The notes under the pieces are model-generated. The model did no database searches, had not been told where the DNA came from, and was given only the letters and a program-made list of their open reading frames with translations. The position numbers and the translations under genes are program-made. A DNA stretch of 64,000 nt from Acetobacteraceae bacterium (lineage in GTDB: Bacteria > Pseudomonadota > Alphaproteobacteria > Acetobacterales > Acetobacteraceae), in the NCBI GenBank assembly GCA_027451405.1, contig DAIDJM010000008.1, positions 1 to 64,000 on the forward strand, given 5' to 3'. Each line of letters begins with the position of its first letter. The stretch's first letter is position 1. Positions 1 to 56,875 of the stretch are shown here, piece after piece.

Positions 1-764
1 ACCGCTACCGTACCCGCTCGGTCGAGCACGTCATCGCCGAGGTCAAGCAGATCCAGCGCGACTTTCCGCAGATGAAGGAATTGTTCTTCGACGACGATAC
101 CTTCACCGACAATCTGCCCCGCGCCGAAGCGATCGCGCGCGAGCTCGGCAAGCTCGGCGTCACCTGGTCGTGCAACGCGAAGGCCAATGTGCCGCGCGAC
201 ACGTTGAAAGTCCTGGCCGACAATGGTCTACGCCTGCTGCTGGTCGGCTACGAATCCGGCAACCAGCAGATCCTGCACAATATCAAAAAAGGCATGCGGA
301 TCGAGGTGGCCCGCCAGTTCACCAAGGATTGCCACGACCTCGGCATCAAGATCCACGGCACCTTCATCTTGGGCCTACCCGGCGAGACCCGCGAGACGAT
401 CGAGGAGACCATCCGCTTCGCGACCCGCATCAACCCGCACACGCTGCAGGTCTCGCTCGCGGCACCCTATCCCGGCACGTTCCTCTATCAGCAGGCGGTC
501 GAAAACGGCTGGCTCGACGCCGCCAACGCCGAGCTGATCGACGAGCACGGCATCCAGATCGCTCCCCTGCACTACCCGCATCTCTCGCACGCCGAGATTT
601 TCGACAACGTGGAGACGTTTTATAAGCGTTTCTACTTCCGCGCGCCGAAGATCGCGTCCATCGTGGGCGAGATGCTGACAAGCCCGCAGATGATGAAGCG
701 CCGCCTGCGCGAGGGCGTGGAGTTCTTCCAGTTCCTGCGGGAGCGGCATCAGACGGCGGCTTGA
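1..764 (+). CDS. hpnJ: HpnJ, hopanoid-associated radical SAM protein (5' truncated by window)
   Basis: The reading frame is already open at base 3 and ends with TGA at 762-764, so only the C-terminal ~253 residues are present. The segment LFFDDDTFTDN followed by a glycine-rich GLPGETRETIEE stretch is typical of the B12-binding/radical SAM family; the CxxxCxxC cluster and B12 domain must lie upstream of the window. In Burkholderia, HpnI, HpnK and HpnJ convert bacteriohopanetetrol into its cyclitol ether, with HpnJ doing the last, radical step. The neighbour hpnK supports this name. The 193 bases to hpnK hold a dispersed three-hairpin repeat. Confidence 0.9.
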   Translation, partial: RYRTRSVEHVIAEVKQIQRDFPQMKELFFDDDTFTDNLPRAEAIARELGKLGVTWSCNAKANVPRDTLKVLADNGLRLLLVGYESGNQQILHNIKKGMRIEVARQFTKDCHDLGIKIHGTFILGLPGETRETIEETIRFATRINPHTLQVSLAAPYPGTFLYQQAVENGWLDAANAELIDEHGIQIAPLHYPHLSHAEIFDNVETFYKRFYFRAPKIASIVGEMLTSPQMMKRRLREGVEFFQFLRERHQTAA

Positions 765-777
765 AAAAGGGTTTTTC

Positions 778-889
778 GTTCTTTTTTGAAAAAAAGAACC
801 AAAAAACTTTTTCGCATGAGACGAAGCCGTCCAGCCGCTCCGTCTAATGCGAGAACGTCTTTTTGCTTCTTTTTCTTCAGAAAAAGAAG
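778..889 (+). repeat. Three-hairpin dispersed repeat, copy A
   Basis: This 112-bp element has three consecutive hairpins. The first is GTTCTTTTTT paired with AAAAAAGAAC (778-799). The second pairs TCGCAT (812-817) with ATGCGA (847-852) and AGACG (819-823) with CGTCT (841-845). The third is a perfect 10-bp stem, CTTCTTTTTC (866-875) with GAAAAAGAAG (880-889) and loop TTCA. The outer hairpins and the flanking AAAAAACTTT match copies B and C, while the middle stem has its own sequence. It sits between hpnJ and hpnK and may end hpnJ transcription. Confidence 0.85.
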
Positions 890-957: not shown

Positions 958-1743
958 ATGACGGATCGCGCCGTCATCACGGTTGCCGACGATTTCGGGC
1001 TTTCGCCCGCGGTCAACGAGGCCGTCGAGCGCGCCCACCGGGAGGGCATCCTCACCAGCGCCAGCCTCATGGTCGCCGCCGATCATGCCGCCGACGCCAT
1101 CGCCCGGGCCCGCAGCCTGCCCGGGCTGCGTGTGGGCCTGCATCTCGTGGCGGTCGAAGGACCCGCCGCCCTTCCCGCCGCCGACCTGCCCGATCTCGTC
1201 GGCCCCGACGGCGGGTTCCCCGCCGCGCAAATCCGCCTGGCGCTGCGCTACGCCACGAGCCCCAGGGCGCGCCGCCAGCTCGCCCGGGAAATCCGCGCCC
1301 AGTTCGAGGCCTTCCGCCGCACGGGCCTCACGCTCGACCACGCGAACGCCCACAAGCACATGCATCTGCATCCGCTCGTGGGCCACCTGATGATCGAAAC
1401 CGGCCGCGAGTACGGGCTGCGGGCCATCCGTATCCCCCGCGAGGCCGGCGGCGGCGCGCTCGGCGCCTGGTGCCGCGTGCTACGCGCCCAGGCCCGCCGC
1501 GCGGGGCTCCGCACCAACGACTGGATCGCCGGCCTCGCCGACACCGGCCACATGACGCTGGAGCGCGTGCAGCACCATCTGGCGCATCTGCGCCCAGGGG
1601 TCACCGAACTCTATTTCCATCCCGCAACTGAAACCGACGCGATCCTGCGGCGCCGGATGCCGGACTATGCGCACGCGGCCGAACTCGACGCGCTGCTGCG
1701 CGCGCGGGTGCCGCAAGGCGTCAGGCTGACGACCTACACGTGA
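958..1743 (+). CDS. hpnK: HpnK, YdjC-like hopanoid deacetylase
   Basis: A 261-residue protein of the YdjC/ChbG carbohydrate-deacetylase fold. The metal-binding ADDFG motif is at residues 10-14, RVGLHL follows, and a histidine-rich HANAHKHMHLHP segment lies around residue 126; LYFHPA is near the end. HpnK removes the acetyl group from N-acetylglucosaminyl bacteriohopanetetrol before HpnJ acts. An upstream in-frame start near 847 would only translate repeat copy A (giving FSSEKE), so ATG 958, which begins MTDRAVITVADDFG, is chosen. Cytoplasmic, with no signal peptide. Confidence 0.9.
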   Translation: MTDRAVITVADDFGLSPAVNEAVERAHREGILTSASLMVAADHAADAIARARSLPGLRVGLHLVAVEGPAALPAADLPDLVGPDGGFPAAQIRLALRYATSPRARRQLAREIRAQFEAFRRTGLTLDHANAHKHMHLHPLVGHLMIETGREYGLRAIRIPREAGGGALGAWCRVLRAQARRAGLRTNDWIAGLADTGHMTLERVQHHLAHLRPGVTELYFHPATETDAILRRRMPDYAHAAELDALLRARVPQGVRLTTYT

Positions 1744-1751
1744 AGGGGATT

Positions 1752-1869
1752 CTTCCTTTTCTGAAGAAAAAGAAGCAAAAAGACTTTTGTTTGTCGGGCC
1801 CGATGCGCCGCTACCGCTCGGGTCCGAAACAGACGAAAGTTTTTTGGTTCTTTTTTTCAAAAAAGAACC
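1752..1869 (-). repeat. Three-hairpin dispersed repeat, copy B (inverted)
   Basis: This is the same element as copy A in reverse orientation, 118 bp long. CTTCCTTTTC (1752-1761) pairs with GAAAAAGAAG (1766-1775) with one mismatch. The middle stem is CGGGCCCGA (1795-1803) with TCGGGTCCG (1818-1826), nine pairs including one G-U. The last hairpin is an 11-bp perfect stem, GGTTCTTTTTT (1846-1856) with AAAAAAGAACC (1859-1869). It begins nine bases after the hpnK stop and ends 53 bases before the TspO-like start. Confidence 0.85.
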
Positions 1870-1922: not shown

Positions 1923-2408
1923 ATGAAGAACGACCGGCTCGTCGCCGCGGCACTCGCGGGCGGCAGCGTGCTCGCCGCCACCTGGGCCGGTAGCCGGTTC
2001 AGCCCCCGGACGGCCCGCACCGGCCTCTGGTACGCCTCGCTGCGAAAGCCACGTTACACGCCGCCCGGACCAGCGATCGGGGCGGTCTGGAGCGTGCTGG
2101 ACGTGCTGCTCGGCTACGCGGGCTATCGTCTGATCGCCGAACGCCACCGGCCCGGGGCGGTGGAGGCCATTGCGGCCTGGCTCACCACCGTGAGCGGGCT
2201 CGCGGGCTTTCAGGCCGCGTTCTTCGGCGCGAAGAGCCCGGCCGCCGGCACCGCGACCTCCGCGGCGATGTGCGCCGCCGCGACCACCACCGCAGGCCTG
2301 GCAAGCCGCATCGATCCGAGCGCGAGCGCGGCCATGGCGCCGCTGGCGCTATGGACCGGCTTCGCGACGTTTCTGAGCGAGGAGATCTGGCGCAGGAACC
2401 GCGCCTGA
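1923..2408 (+). CDS. tspO: TspO/MBR-family tryptophan-rich membrane protein
   Basis: A 161-residue membrane protein with the family signature WYASLRKPRYTPPGP at residues ~37-51, then a W-x-x-L helix and a C-terminal segment ending near LWTGFATFLSEEIWRRN. TspO proteins bind porphyrins or sterol-like ligands in the membrane, and placement beside hopanoid genes is suggestive but not proof of a link. An earlier in-frame start at 1740 would read through repeat copy B, so ATG 1923 (MKNDRLV) is preferred. About five membrane segments are expected. Confidence 0.8.
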   Translation: MKNDRLVAAALAGGSVLAATWAGSRFSPRTARTGLWYASLRKPRYTPPGPAIGAVWSVLDVLLGYAGYRLIAERHRPGAVEAIAAWLTTVSGLAGFQAAFFGAKSPAAGTATSAAMCAAATTTAGLASRIDPSASAAMAPLALWTGFATFLSEEIWRRNRA

Positions 2409-14584: not shown

Positions 14585-14649
14585 GGGCCTCCGGCGGGCA
14601 TGGGCTCTGCCCCTGCGCCCCGCTGGGGCCGAAAGGCCCCAGCCCCAGC
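14585..14649 (-). repeat. GC-rich double-hairpin repeat, copy 1
   Basis: This copy reads on the minus strand. The first hairpin is GCTGGGGCC / GGCCCCAGC with loop GAAA (14622-14643), and next to it is a GGGGCAGAGCCC-type stem and the CCGCCGGAGG tail (about 14587-14596). Three more copies are at 19202, 20852 and 56811. It lies between the SRPBCC gene and the SDR gene, both on the minus strand. Confidence 0.75.
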
Positions 14650-14651
14650 AC

Positions 14652-15110
14652 TTAGGCGGCTTTGGCGGGAAGGCGGTCGGTGCGCGGGAGGCTTTGGCCG
14701 GTCTCCAGGAAGGTCTTCAGGCTCGAGAGCACCTGCGGCCAGCCGTTCGACACCGCCTGGATATGCCGGTGCGGCTTGTCCGCCTCATGCGTGACCACCA
14801 GCTTCACCACGTCGCCATCATTCGTGATATCGAACGTGCAGCGCGTATCGCCGTCCGCCTTGTTCTCCGGGATGAACTCGTTCCGCCACCGCAGCACGAG
14901 CCGGTTCGGCGGATCGATCTCGAGCACCTCGCCGGCATCCGCCACCCATCCGTCAGCAGCGATCAGCTTCCACGATGCGCCCTTCTGCCAGCTGCACTCG
15001 TTATGAAAACCAAACCAAAACTGCCGGGTGAATTCGGGCGTCGTGATCGCTTCCCAAAGCTTTTCCTTGGTCGTGCGGATATAGGTGACATAGACGAACC
15101 GGTCATTCAT
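14652..15110 (-). CDS. SRPBCC/AHSA1-domain protein
   Basis: A 152-residue protein of the START-like AHSA1 superfamily. It begins with VYVTYIRTTKEKLWEAIT, and the typical TRQFW and GEVLEIDPPNRLVLRW segments follow. The family binds hydrophobic ligands or acts as a co-chaperone; the ligand here is unknown. It overlaps the upstream ArsR regulator gene by eight bases, a pairing seen in many proteobacteria, so the two form a small operon controlled from the operator at 15438. Confidence 0.85.
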   Translation of the reverse strand: MNDRFVYVTYIRTTKEKLWEAITTPEFTRQFWFGFHNECSWQKGASWKLIAADGWVADAGEVLEIDPPNRLVLRWRNEFIPENKADGDTRCTFDITNDGDVVKLVVTHEADKPHRHIQAVSNGWPQVLSSLKTFLETGQSLPRTDRLPAKAA

Positions 15111-20851: not shown

Positions 20852-20902
20852 GCAGGGGCTCTGCCCCTGCACCCCGCTGGGGCCGGAAGGCCCCAGACCC
20901 CG
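20852..20902 (-). repeat. GC-rich double-hairpin repeat, copy 3
   Basis: A minus-oriented copy. GCAGGGGC-TCT-GCCCCTGC (20852-20870) is a perfect 8-bp stem and CTGGGGCC-GGAA-GGCCCCAG (20877-20896) a second one. It fills most of the gap between rpmA and obgE and could reduce read-through between the ribosomal genes and obgE. Confidence 0.78.
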
Positions 20903-20906
20903 ATAG

Positions 20907-23125
<2,219 letters not shown>

Positions 23126-33362: not shown

Positions 33363-33944
33363 ATGCGCCCTTTTCGGGCTTTCCTGCTTGGCTTCCTCAC
33401 GCTCGGCGCGGCACCCCTCGACGCGCCCGGCACGGTGGCCGGCGAGCGCCATGCGGACGCGCTGGCGCGATCACCCGCCGTGCCGCCGCCACCGGGTCAT
33501 CGGATCATCACGGATCGCTCGGGCCGCAAAGAGATCGGCAAGGCATCCGTCTACGCGCACCATTTCGCACGACGTCCCATGGCCGACGGAAAACGCTATC
33601 TGCCCTCCGCGAACGTCGCCGCGAGTCGCATGCTGCCACTCGGTTCGACAGCGAAAGTGACGGATTTACAGACTGGCCGCAGTGCGGTCGTCAAGGTCGA
33701 GGACCGCGGGCCATTTGTCGATGGACGCGTGGTCGATCTCAGCCCGCATGTCGCAAGACAGATCGGGCTCGAGCACCAGCGCGGCGTAGCGCCCGTCGTG
33801 GTCGCGCCGATTGCCGTGCCACAGAGGAACGGAGCGGTCACAGCCGGCGCCGGCGCCTCGTCGCTGCCGCAGGCACGTTCGCCGACCGCTCAACCGATGC
33901 CGATCCGCTCCAGCACGCGCGTGACCACATCGGATTCACAATAA
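33363..33944 (+). CDS. rlpA: RlpA-like lytic transglycosylase (DPBB domain)
   Basis: A 193-residue exported protein. A signal segment (FRAFLLGFLTLGAAP) is followed by a double-psi beta-barrel: GKASVYAHHFARRPMADGKR, then VKVEDRGPFVDGRVVDLS, which contains the catalytic-site Asp of RlpA. It cleaves naked glycan strands at the septum. No SPOR domain and no lipobox are visible; the C-terminal ~40 residues are low complexity. The gene end overlaps the convergent glycosyltransferase gene by 55 bases. Confidence 0.85.
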   Translation: MRPFRAFLLGFLTLGAAPLDAPGTVAGERHADALARSPAVPPPPGHRIITDRSGRKEIGKASVYAHHFARRPMADGKRYLPSANVAASRMLPLGSTAKVTDLQTGRSAVVKVEDRGPFVDGRVVDLSPHVARQIGLEHQRGVAPVVVAPIAVPQRNGAVTAGAGASSLPQARSPTAQPMPIRSSTRVTTSDSQ

Positions 33945-34993
33945 AGTTGCATGGCGCGGGCGCGGCCTGCCTCACCCATGCGGCGCCGAAGGTCCGGGTC
34001 GGACGCGAGCGTGCGCAGCGCCGCCCCGAGCGGGCCCACGCGTCTCGGCGGGACGAGAAATCCGGTCTCGAGCGGCACGACCTGCTCGCGCGGGCCGCTG
34101 ATGTCGGTCGCGATCACGGGGAGCGCGCAGAACATCGCCTCGATCACCGACATCGGTAGCCCCTCGAAATGGCTCGGCAGCGCGAAGATGTCCGCGGCGG
34201 CCAGCAGAGAAGCCACGTCGCTGCGATAGCCGAGACGGCGCAGCCGAGGGCCCAGGCCGCTTGCGGCAAAGAGTGGCTCGATATCTTCACCGCGATCGGT
34301 GGGCAGGCGCTCTCCCACGATCCAGAGTTCCGCGCTCACCTCGCGCATCGCCGCGAGCAGCTCGGGGTAGCCCTTGTGACGCACGAGGCGCGAGACCGCG
34401 ATCACGACGACGGTGTCGTCCGCGACACGGAGTTCATGCCGAATGCGTGCCCGCGCCAGCGGATCGGGGCGAAACAGTCCGGGATCGCGCCCGTTGCCGA
34501 CCGCAACCGCCGCGGGATGGATGCGCAGCCGGCGGGCGTCGCGAGCTTCCTCTTCCGAAACTGTCAGGAACACGTCCGTGATGCGCCCGGCCGCGAGTTC
34601 GGCCGCAAGACTGGCGGCACGGCGCAGTGGCGAGCCCGGCTGATTGAACAGGAAACCATGGCAGGTATAGGCGATGCGCGGCACGCCGGCTTGCCTGGCC
34701 GCGAGCCGGGCGAGCAGGCCGCTGATCGGCATATGCGCATGCACGATGTCGGGCCGCTCGCGACGGATCAGCGCAAGCAGCGCGCGGTAGGCGCGCAGTT
34801 GCGCCACTGCATCGAGCCGGCGCTCCATCGGCACCGTCTCCACGCGAAAGCCTTCCGCCCGGACATCGTCGAGCAGCCCCCCCTCGGCACATACGCCCAC
34901 TGCCTCATGGCCGCGGCCGCGAATCCCGCGCATGAGCGGAAGCAGGAAATGGCGGAGCGAGAAATCGACGTTGGTGACCTGAAGAATTTTCAT
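33890..34993 (-). CDS. GT4-family glycosyltransferase
   Basis: A 367-residue GT-B enzyme. It begins MKILQVTNVDFSLRHFLLPL, has ERPDIVHAHMPISGLLARL, and the donor-binding half has VSRLVRHKGYPELLAAM and SHFEGLPMSVIEAM (the E-x7-E region). It probably adds a hexose to an envelope or exopolysaccharide glycan. Upstream in-frame codons to 35101 would translate repeat copy C; ATG 34993 matches the family start. The 3' hairpin of that repeat lies just before the start codon. Confidence 0.88.
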   Translation of the reverse strand: MKILQVTNVDFSLRHFLLPLMRGIRGRGHEAVGVCAEGGLLDDVRAEGFRVETVPMERRLDAVAQLRAYRALLALIRRERPDIVHAHMPISGLLARLAARQAGVPRIAYTCHGFLFNQPGSPLRRAASLAAELAAGRITDVFLTVSEEEARDARRLRIHPAAVAVGNGRDPGLFRPDPLARARIRHELRVADDTVVVIAVSRLVRHKGYPELLAAMREVSAELWIVGERLPTDRGEDIEPLFAASGLGPRLRRLGYRSDVASLLAAADIFALPSHFEGLPMSVIEAMFCALPVIATDISGPREQVVPLETGFLVPPRRVGPLGAALRTLASDPDLRRRMGEAGRARAMQLYCESDVVTRVLERIGIG

Positions 34994-34997
34994 TTCT

Positions 34998-35109
34998 CTT
35001 CTTTTTCGAGGGAAAAAGAAGCAAGGAGATCGCTTCGTACTAGGACCGACCTTCCACAACCTCGTACAAACGCGAAGAAGTTTTTTGGTTCTTTTTTTCA
35101 AAAAAGAAC
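34998..35109 (-). repeat. Three-hairpin dispersed repeat, copy C (inverted)
   Basis: A third copy, 112 bp, in the orientation of copy B. CTTCTTTTTC (34998-35007) pairs perfectly with GAAAAAGAAG (35012-35021). The middle stem GTACTAGG (35037-35044) pairs with CCTCGTAC (35060-35067) with one mismatch and is extended by CGC/GCG. The last hairpin is GTTCTTTTTT (35088-35097) with AAAAAAGAAC (35100-35109). It fills the gap between the heparinase stop and the glycosyltransferase start. Confidence 0.85.
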
Positions 35110-35113
35110 ATCG

Positions 35114-36694
35114 TCATGCAACCTTCGTGATAGCCCACTTCACATGCTGCGGCGAATCGGCCAGCCCGCTGAGCACCACCTGCTCGCTGCGCCGTGGCTC
35201 CTGCCCGGCCAGATAGACACTTTCCTCGAGAGCCACGCGGGCCCCCTCGGCCCGCAGCCGCCAGCCACCGCCGGGCAGCCGCAGCAGCACGGCCGCGCCG
35301 TCCTGTTGCACGCTGGCAATGACGCTCGGATGCAGATGGAAGCGCACGGCCCAGGGCAGGCCGCTATCCGCCTCGACCAGATCCTCGCCGCGAATATCCT
35401 CGCCGCTCTCGGCGACATAGAGCCGGCGTCGGTGGAGCGCGCCGAACGGCCGCTTCCAGCCATCATGGCTGAGCTCGAGCCAGTGCGCGCCGTCCGCCTC
35501 CTGGCGTGTCACCTCGACGCGTTCCGGGCGGCGCCCCAGCCCCACCGGCTTCAGCTCCGATGAGCTGGTATCGGCAACAACCAGCGTCGAGTGCGCGGCG
35601 GTGGCACGCGCCGCGTCGTGCCAGGGGCCGCCGTTGGCGGGTGCTGCGCCGCAATTGACGATCATGCGCTCGCGGCCCACCGAAAGCTCGAAACTCAGCG
35701 TGCCGGCATGGGCGTGCCGGTCCTGTCCGGGCGGCGGCGGCGCGCCGGCATCGACAATCAGGACGGTGCGGCCGGCCTGCAGGCGCTCGAAACCGGTATC
35801 GGGCAGGCGGGCCGGCGCACGCCCGCCTCGAGCCGCCTGCGCGAGCACGAGATCGATCAACGTCGCCGGCTCGTCCCGCGTGCCGTTGAACAGGGCGAGC
35901 CCGCCATCGCCGTGACGCATCAGCCGCAACGCGCCGGCCATGCGGTCGATCGCGGAAGCCAGCGGCGGCACGGATGGCACGCCGGCAGCCACCAGCATGA
36001 AGCGGATCTCCAGAAGGTCCTTCAGCGCGCGAAGCTGAGCGGCGGGACTGCGCTCGACATGGCCACCATCCTCGCGCACCTGACGGGCGATCTCCGCGGG
36101 GAGGAATTTGAGCGCACGCGCGAGATAGGGAGCGTGTTCCGGGACCGCAACGGCGGCGGCGATCAGGCCTTTGAGCGCGGTGAGCGCGCGGCCGTCCATC
36201 TCCTCCACCGGCATGGCGGCGGAGAGCTGGCGCGCGTCCCAGATCAGCCTGCCCATCAGCGCGTGGCGGAAATCGTCATCGGCGGACGCGGCGAAAAAAT
36301 CGAAATGACTGAGCCAAGCGGCGACGCGTGCGCCAGCCACCTCGGGCCGTTCAGCGATGTCCTCGCGGCTCGTCTCGATCCAGTCGGCGACGAGCGCACG
36401 GGCCCGCATCCGCGCCGCGTCCGTGCCGATCACCCGCAGATCGCGCAACCAGGTGAAGCCGTGCGCGTGCGCCCGCAGCGCGGCGCCGCCGGCCGGCTCG
36501 CTCCATGCCCCGGGCCGCAGCGGCCGCACCCCGCCTTCATAGGCGAGTTCTCCCTTGAGCAGCCGAGAGCCGCGCACCGGATCGCCGGGCCAGGGCTCGC
36601 GCACGGCGGCCGAGGGGGCGTCGGGCACGCTGATCCGAAGCGCGGGAAGCCGGGCCCAGCGACGGCGCCATTCGCGCCAGGACAAGCCGCTCAA
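35114..36694 (-). CDS. Heparinase II/III-family protein
   Basis: A 526-residue protein. An alpha-helical N-terminal toroid covers ~1-290, with HGFTWLRDLRVIG early on. The beta-sandwich part has QDRHAHAGTLSFELSVGRERMIVNCG, the conserved heparinase II/III core with its histidine. No signal peptide is seen. Such genes are common in alphaproteobacteria but the polysaccharide substrate is unknown. The start is a TTG at 36694, as no ATG or GTG fits. It is probably transcribed with the downstream GT4 gene across repeat copy C. Confidence 0.82.
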   Translation of the reverse strand: MSGLSWREWRRRWARLPALRISVPDAPSAAVREPWPGDPVRGSRLLKGELAYEGGVRPLRPGAWSEPAGGAALRAHAHGFTWLRDLRVIGTDAARMRARALVADWIETSREDIAERPEVAGARVAAWLSHFDFFAASADDDFRHALMGRLIWDARQLSAAMPVEEMDGRALTALKGLIAAAVAVPEHAPYLARALKFLPAEIARQVREDGGHVERSPAAQLRALKDLLEIRFMLVAAGVPSVPPLASAIDRMAGALRLMRHGDGGLALFNGTRDEPATLIDLVLAQAARGGRAPARLPDTGFERLQAGRTVLIVDAGAPPPPGQDRHAHAGTLSFELSVGRERMIVNCGAAPANGGPWHDAARATAAHSTLVVADTSSSELKPVGLGRRPERVEVTRQEADGAHWLELSHDGWKRPFGALHRRRLYVAESGEDIRGEDLVEADSGLPWAVRFHLHPSVIASVQQDGAAVLLRLPGGGWRLRAEGARVALEESVYLAGQEPRRSEQVVLSGLADSPQHVKWAITKVA

Positions 36695-56747: not shown

Positions 56748-56810
56748 GACCGGGGGGGCTTTTCCCCCCAGGACCCAGGCTGGGCCGGCAGACTCCAACC
56801 CTTTCGCGAC

Positions 56811-56870
56811 GGGGTCTGGGGCCTTTCGGCCCCAGGGGGGTGCAGGGGCAAAGCCCGTGCCCGCCGGAGG
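56811..56870 (+). repeat. GC-rich double-hairpin repeat, copy 4 (supplies kdpD ribosome site)
   Basis: CTGGGGCC-TTTC-GGCCCCAG (56816-56835) is a perfect 8-bp hairpin; GCAGGGGC and GCCCGTGC (56842-56860) form the second stem with one mismatch. The CCGCCGGAGG tail ends at 56870, five bases before the kdpD GTG. The GGAGG of the repeat is thus the Shine-Dalgarno sequence of kdpD. Confidence 0.8.
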
Positions 56871-56875
56871 CAAGC

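Follow-up and report, generated by a model that had tools for sequence, protein, structure and literature searches.

A repeat family of the Acetobacteraceae that is MITE-like in distribution and resembles bidirectional intrinsic terminators in placement and anatomy

The window, by which we mean the whole stretch of 64,000 nucleotides that we analyzed (the start of contig DAIDJM010000008.1, from a bacterium of the family Acetobacteraceae), contains three copies, A, B, and C, of a short element (Table 1). Each consists of two AT-rich hairpin arms, which are conserved almost base for base across the family of elements, and a middle that is variable and mostly GC rich. Copy A is in the opposite orientation to copies B and C. 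Copy A lies 13 bp past the stop codon of a gene for a radical SAM protein (which ends at 764), copy B lies 8 bp past the stop codon of a gene for a YdjC-like protein (which ends at 1743), and copy C lies 4 bp beyond the 3' end of a gene for a heparinase II/III-like protein, which is on the minus strand. On its other side, copy C is 4 bp from the start of a glycosyltransferase gene, which is also on the minus strand. Because only these 4 bp separate copy C from the start codon, the purine-rich end of the element (AAGAAGAGAAATG on the minus strand; window 34990-35000) may be the ribosome-binding site of the glycosyltransferase gene. Across the source genome, 24 of 51 distances from an element to the 5' end of a gene were within 25 bp. 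The window also contains a second GC-rich palindromic repeat (GCAGGGGCTCTGCCCCTGCACCCCGCTGGGGCC...), at 14587-14667, 20852-20921, and 56810-56871; these copies are 80-92% alike and occur in two orientations.

Table 1. Positions of the three copies and of the neighboring genes in the window
Feature	Position	Strand	Basis or detail
Copy A, whole element	778..889	-	sequence, alignment, covariance-model match
Copy A, left arm	854..889	-	hairpin CTTCTTTTTC-TGAA-GAAAAAGAAG and linker CAAAAAGACGTT
Copy A, variable middle (43 nt)	811..853	-	stem TCGCAT/ATGCGA and GACGGAGC/GCTTCGTC
Copy A, right arm (AAAGTTTTTTGGTTCTTTTTTTCAAAAAAGAAC)	778..810	-	sequence, alignment
Copy B, whole element (117 bp)	1752..1868	+	sequence, alignment, covariance-model match
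Copy B, left arm	1752..1787	+	sequence, alignment
Copy B, variable middle (48 nt)	1788..1835	+	stem CGGGCCCGA/TCGGGTCCG
Copy B, right arm (same as A's)	1836..1868	+	sequence, alignment
Copy C, whole element (left arm degenerate)	34998..35109	+	sequence, alignment, covariance-model match
Copy C, left arm (mutated: loop CGAGGG, linker CAAGGAGATCGC)	34998..35033	+	
Copy C, variable middle (43 nt)	35034..35076	+	stem GTACTAGG/CCTCGTAC
Copy C, right arm	35077..35109	+	sequence, alignment
Radical SAM protein gene, upstream of A	72..764	+	Pfam PF04055; start as in ORF list, may begin before the window
YdjC-like protein gene, between A and B	958..1743	+	Pfam PF04794
TspO/MBR family gene, downstream of B	1923..2408	+	Pfam PF03073
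Glycosyltransferase gene, starts beside C	33890..34993	-	Pfam PF00534
Heparinase II/III-like protein gene, ends at C	35114..36628	-	Pfam PF07940

The 33-bp right arm is the same in A and B and differs by one change in C. Relative to the 36-bp left arm (CTTCTTTTTCTGAAGAAAAAGAAGCAAAAAGACTTT), A and B have one change each and C has several. The initial annotation of this DNA, which was made from the sequence alone, gave exact coordinates for A and C, but B ends at 1868 rather than at 1869. It also described the outer hairpins as nearly identical base for base, which is true of A, of B, and of the right arm of C, but not of C's degenerate left arm. As it claimed, the middle stems of the three copies differ in sequence and yet pair. 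If up to three mismatches are allowed, a shared 20-mer (GTTTTTTGGTTCTTTTTTTC) occurs at just three sites in the window, which are the three copies, and none would be expected (100 shuffles); the 24-bp left hairpin is likewise restricted to three sites in the window, with none expected in shuffles. A covariance model that was built from 34 copies from the source genome, including A, B, and C, returned exactly the coordinates of these three.

The folds of copies A and B are much more stable than those of shuffled sequences (z = -5.4 for A on the minus strand and -6.5 for B). The fold of copy C is weak on the plus strand (z = -1.99, with 4 of 200 shuffles as good) and z is -2.7 on the minus strand. 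The two arms can partly pair with each other, so the folds predicted for A and B vary between a three-hairpin form and a single long hairpin: the single long hairpin is the minimum-energy fold of A, while for B the minimum-energy fold is three hairpins and the centroid is one long hairpin.

For most copies, a stem followed by a T-tract can be read directly on both strands, which, judging from sequence, is how a bidirectional intrinsic terminator would be built. A generic scan for terminators picked out none of the middle stems in the three copies, but its limits on loops and tails exclude many such stems. The two ends of the element tend to be of opposite types: one is CTTC..GAAG and the other is GTTC..GAAC in 150 of 230 elements, whereas the class frequencies alone would give about 85. 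Opposite types lead to mismatches between the ends if the element folds as one long hairpin, so separate hairpins would be favored. The lengths of the homopolymer runs are also constrained. In the GAC-type arm, the three runs are equal (5-5-5, 6-6-6, or 4-4-4) in 194 of 196 arms, and in the other type of arm they follow the pattern n, n+1, n in 370 of 397. Pairing within the hairpin explains two of the three runs but not the run in the linker. The patterns in end types and run lengths may be due in part to descent from a small number of subfamilies.

The source genome (3.37 Mb in 67 contigs) contains many more copies. A genome-wide search with a covariance model, as the initial annotation had suggested, gave at least 119 distinct matches in this genome (150 were listed, of which 31 were at the same place on the other strand). 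An exact pattern for the right arm matched 75 times, with no matches for a reversed-pattern control, and there were 146 matches to the left arm. The middles fall mostly into two length classes, 40-50 and 71-86 nt, and most of the middles of 80-86 nt share an apex that resembles ATGCGANTCGCAT. At one locus of the source genome (L050; C35:129234-131613), three copies are in tandem with a period of 176 bp, spacer included. A dispersed repeat with CTGCGCTCCGGTGCTCACGG lies in or beside some elements and looks nested (L002, before position 1500; L300, around 800; and L274).

Among 100 genera of Acetobacteraceae, each represented by one genome and with the source genome included, 29 carry the motif. 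Presence is patchy within the Acetobacteraceae, and the spread in copy number between carrier genera is extreme, with 1 to 812 hits each. The carriers include Gluconacetobacter, Roseomonas, Pseudoroseomonas, Acidiphilium, and many metagenome-assembled genomes from the Acetobacteraceae or Rhodospirillales. In a draw of 289 genomes from the class, the source genome was the sole carrier: the three other Acetobacteraceae in the draw lacked the motif, and so did all of the other alphaproteobacteria (0 of about 285). In the genomes that were sampled, then, the family is confined to the Acetobacteraceae. The right arm by itself has a few matches in other groups. The exact 33-base right arm is found in contigs that are labelled as Oscillospiraceae (L086, L139, and L150), in L190, and in one Microviridae record (MG945182). 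In the genome contigs among these, it mostly follows a hairpin similar to GCGAAGCG and sometimes precedes a ribosome-binding site. Convergence, transfer, or mis-binning could account for these matches. Also, 29 stretches from IMG/VR that are classed as viral (L320-L348) contain the right arm, and most contain the left arm as well; these could be proviruses or misclassified host DNA.

We used a simple codon-based gene caller to place the elements relative to genes. In the source genome, the median distance from an element to the 3' end of a gene is 7 bp, and 66 of 79 elements are within 25 bp. A genus with five species (g34) gives a similar picture, with a median of 9 bp and 57 of 62 within 25 bp. 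Overlap with coding sequence is rare (3 overlapping versus 65 placed at the source-genome loci; 0 versus 45 in g34). In g34, we considered stretches of up to 20 kb that were picked for their density of elements: of the gaps of 60 bp or more, 18 of the 35 that are convergent contain an element, as compared to 1 of the 48 that are divergent (Fisher P = 9e-8). Gap counts from the source genome are biased because its loci were chosen for holding elements. Two plasmids of Pseudoroseomonas cervicalis provide further examples: on pL11-B, a copy fills a 130-bp gap between convergent genes, and on pL11-A, a copy starts about 6 bp past a stop codon. The elements were unannotated in the plasmid records that we checked; a search of plasmids with a stretch that was mostly coding gave only gene similarity. 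Either arm can face the gene that is ending (19 and 17 copies). The initial annotation, which saw no fixed orientation relative to transcription, is thus right about the order of the arms, but it missed that the complete element goes with the 3' ends of genes. This position lends support to a role at transcription boundaries, which was one of the roles it had proposed. Not every genome has this placement: in the sample from G079, there was no bias towards gene ends, and elements occupied 5 of 19 convergent and 4 of 21 divergent gaps, though gene calls there were sparse.

Another role that had been proposed is in RNA processing. An element that stabilizes the 3' ends of mRNAs (similar to REP) or that is cleaved by an RNase III-type activity, and that is not a terminator, might also have long paired stems immediately after stop codons, and the potential of A and B to fold as one long duplex would suit it. 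Nevertheless, processing needs neither T-tracts on both strands nor a preference for convergent gaps, and we find this explanation very improbable.

The placement of the elements, and the conservation of their arms, also brings to mind the DNA uptake signals of Neisseria and Pasteurellaceae. Uptake signals are conserved and repeated and, as inverted pairs, serve as terminators at the ends of many operons (PMC1852404). So the arms might be a signal for DNA uptake or for chromosome organization that happens to sit in terminators: as has been reported for uptake signals, they are specific to a family, highly conserved, and repeated as inverted pairs at gene ends (PMC1852404). However, uptake signals are about 9-11 nt and are generally present in at least 1,000 copies (PMC1852404), while the arms are about 33-36 bp, the source genome is far below 1,000 copies even by the counts of individual arms, and the elements are seldom within coding sequence. 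Also, an uptake signal itself forms the stem of its terminator, while here the arms are conserved and the stem varies. Arm length, copy number, and location all disfavor this reading, and we consider its chances to be slim.

Comparisons between the five species of g34 suggest that the element is gained or lost as a unit. At about six orthologous gene ends, the whole unit is found in some species and not in others, and the neighboring genes are conserved on both sides. For example, at one site, G243 has GCGCTC-TAAGAAAGAGT-element-ATACTTCCTT-GCTTGAGGAG, while in G033 and G211 the flanks are joined and the stop codon is different. Both arms and the outer AAGNAAG/CTTNCTT ends appear and vanish together at the orthologous sites. 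Because the extra stretch contains both of these outer motifs, which are outside the hairpins, we place the ends of the unit at AAGNAAG/CTTNCTT. The inserted stretch thus has terminal inverted repeats, made up of the imperfect inverted arms and these outer motifs. No target-site duplication is evident at the g34 junctions, where the flanks have diverged. Filled and empty sites support the suggestion in the initial annotation that the element could be non-autonomous and mobile, although any single site might reflect loss by deletion of a palindrome. At one of these sites (L228, near 3426), G033 may have a remnant of the element.

These sites bear on whether the family could be an ordinary type of host terminator that evolves in place by mutation, with the likeness of the arms maintained by selection or gene conversion rather than by movement. 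That would account for the placement at gene ends and the two-way anatomy, and it might be argued from the near identity of the arms in distant genera. But it does not sit well with the absence of the whole unit from about six orthologous sites in congeners that retain both neighbors, with the joint gain or loss of the arms and the outer motifs, or with the extreme spread in copy number between genera. We consider it quite unlikely.

What might mobilize the element? We searched for Y1 transposases only (PF01797) and did not find a mobilizer. The source genome, G079, G020, and several other carriers have no match to this family, and G033, G095, G061, and G031 have a single match each. As they are absent from the source genome and from G079, Y1 transposases are ruled out as the mobilizer in those two genomes.

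The initial annotation was based on just three middles, and its central claim was that the middle changes sequence but always pairs. Two kinds of tests bear out the paired change. First, in a MAFFT alignment of the 34 copies from the source genome, which was not fitted to the structure, the covariation score was 0.133, versus 0.092 (standard deviation 0.008) for shuffles, and none of 500 shuffles scored as high. The score of the three-hairpin structure also exceeded those of all six slid registers. Only 57-63% of the cells in the two main middle helices were paired, in part because the middles align poorly in this alignment. Second, in an approach that does not require an alignment, we compared the pairing of each copy's own middle arms to that of arms combined across copies, with 2,000 permutations. 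Own arms paired better, with z = -6.2 in the source genome (n = 67), -8.8 in g34 (n = 46), and -14.5 for other loci (n = 121). Each of these three results was beyond all 2,000 permutations, with statistics that ignore shared descent among the copies. With a second method for finding elements, z was -5.8 for the source genome, -6.8 for g34, -12.7 for named genome contigs, and -1.9 for contigs from viral collections. Paired changes are also seen in the end hairpins: 5 of 34 copies have G-C in place of C-G at the base of the left one.

On the other hand, "always" is too strong. The middle is weak in 5 of 67 copies from the source genome, and in G079, own arms do not pair better than arms from different copies do (z = +1.3, n = 15). 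The finding that was to speak against the claim, namely further copies with unpaired middles and no significant covariation, was made in this one genome, although covariation and pairing are significant overall. So the claim of paired change holds in most lineages, but not in all.

The initial annotation took paired change as a sign of selection on a folded RNA or a cruciform. The change is indeed paired, but this by itself is not proof of selection, as templated correction of imperfect palindromes can give the same result. Templated correction is a known mutational process for quasipalindromes. If it operates on these elements during replication, then own arms would likewise pair better than cross-combined arms do, with no selection on structure. 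However, the two ends of the element are near-complementary and should have been evened out too, yet they stay unlike (opposite types in 150 of 230), and G079 has the arms but not the paired middles. That the paired changes arose in this way strikes us as unlikely.

G079 is a difficulty for the idea that these elements are terminators, as it is by far the richest in the motif but shows neither gene-end bias nor paired middles. It would fit with a selfish MITE-like repeat that builds up between genes, often right after stop codons, because selection removes insertions elsewhere, and whose behavior as a terminator is incidental or was adopted in some genera. The differences between species in whether a site has the whole unit, the tandem copies in the source genome, and the conservation of the arms, which is far above what a terminator needs, could all be cited in its favor. 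But the divergent gaps of g34 are as free of coding sequence as the convergent gaps are, and they are almost devoid of elements; also, the middle pairs better than cross-combined arms do in most lineages. We see a primarily selfish origin of these patterns as unlikely, though worth keeping in mind.

We rate the family as terminator-associated, MITE-like repeats for which we found no description and which are absent from Rfam. At gathering scores, Rfam 15 matches just three tRNAs in the window and does not match the element. Our literature search, which covered few subscription journals, found no paper that prints the arm sequences and, in work on repeats and terminators of Acetobacteraceae, no description of the family. 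There are several systems that resemble it in part. Bidirectional Rho-independent terminators, with an A-tract, a stem, and a T-tract (PMC1852404), are similar in having a stem flanked by A- and T-rich tracts, in being at the 3' ends of genes, and in being enriched between convergent genes. But normal terminators have neither 33-36 bp arms that are common to a genome or a family nor two additional AT hairpins, and they do not come and go as a fixed unit. REP elements and BIMEs, with their REP-associated tyrosine transposases (PMC2817692, PMC3733652), are palindromic, extragenic, high in copy number, and near the 3' ends of genes, as these elements are. However, REP elements are 20-40 bp and have a GTAG or CGTC tag, while members of our family are about 112-155 bp, with three hairpins and AAG/CTT ends; and REP systems have a Y1 transposase, which the source genome and G079 lack. 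REPs of the CGTC type are reported to be missing from the Acetobacteraceae (PMC3733652). The Correia repeat enclosed elements of Neisseria (PMC2649163) are also short and non-autonomous, with inverted ends, the potential to fold, and signs of mobilization between strains. They act on neighboring genes (PMC2649163), which we count as another likeness. As far as can be judged from descriptions, they differ in having a conserved core, sites for IHF and RNase III, and promoters, instead of a variable paired core that lies after stop codons. Finally, Gluconobacter oxydans has a 100-bp bidirectional terminator after GOX0028, which its authors found to be efficient by RNA-seq (PMC7055074). It is from the same bacterial family, is of similar length, and works in both directions. 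We liken it to our elements by description, not by sequence, and do not claim that it is one of them, but it is the nearest experimental hint of termination.

Overall, the distribution of the family resembles that of a MITE, and, as far as its letters tell, its placement and anatomy resemble those of a bidirectional intrinsic terminator. The explanation that we favor, and which we think is probable though far from certain, is that this MITE-like repeat of the Acetobacteraceae spread as a whole unit and that most of the lineages that we examined retain it as a bidirectional intrinsic terminator. In either direction, RNA from the gene that is ending would first include a conserved AT hairpin and an A-tract and then the variable middle hairpin. 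The T-tract would come next (AAAGTTTTTTGGTTCTTTTTTT on one strand and AAAGTCTTTTTGCTTCTTTTT on the other), and RNA polymerase would let go. We propose that the letters of the middle drift in pairs because its pairing is what counts. The arms would supply both of the T-tracts, and they are probably also recognized by a putative mobilizing enzyme or by another protein. We infer that the element terminates transcription, that it moves by transposition and is not just lost, and what its arms do, while the family and its distribution, the placement at gene ends in two genera, the paired change, and the presence or absence of the unit between congeners are observations.

Several observations count against this explanation. 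G079, the genome with the most hits to the motif, has neither hallmark of terminator use. The generic scan called none of the three middle stems, some middles pair weakly, and we found neither a Y1 transposase in the source genome or G079 nor a target-site duplication. Finally, conservation of 33 bases per arm is more than a terminator requires. Given that G079 lacks both the placement bias and the pairing of the middle, this small sample suggests that spread and use as a terminator are separable and that the latter was adopted in some lineages. A bolder version, which we offer tentatively and would not bet on, is that the element moves as a ready-made two-way terminator: a putative enzyme would recognize the asymmetric arms with their length-locked A/T runs, the inner stem would be rewritten between copies under the constraint of pairing, and insertions would set new ends of transcription units throughout the family.

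If the element both terminates transcription and moves, then the ends of some operons were placed by insertion and not by point mutation. Because some carriers have up to about 800 hits to the motif, and because roughly half of the convergent gaps that we considered in g34 are occupied, its copies could make up a substantial fraction of the operon ends there. The combination of conserved arms with a variable stem also makes for a clean case in which to weigh selection on structure against templated mutation of palindromes. And as the Acetobacteraceae include the industrial acetic acid bacteria, these elements would provide ready-made two-way terminators for hosts from this family.
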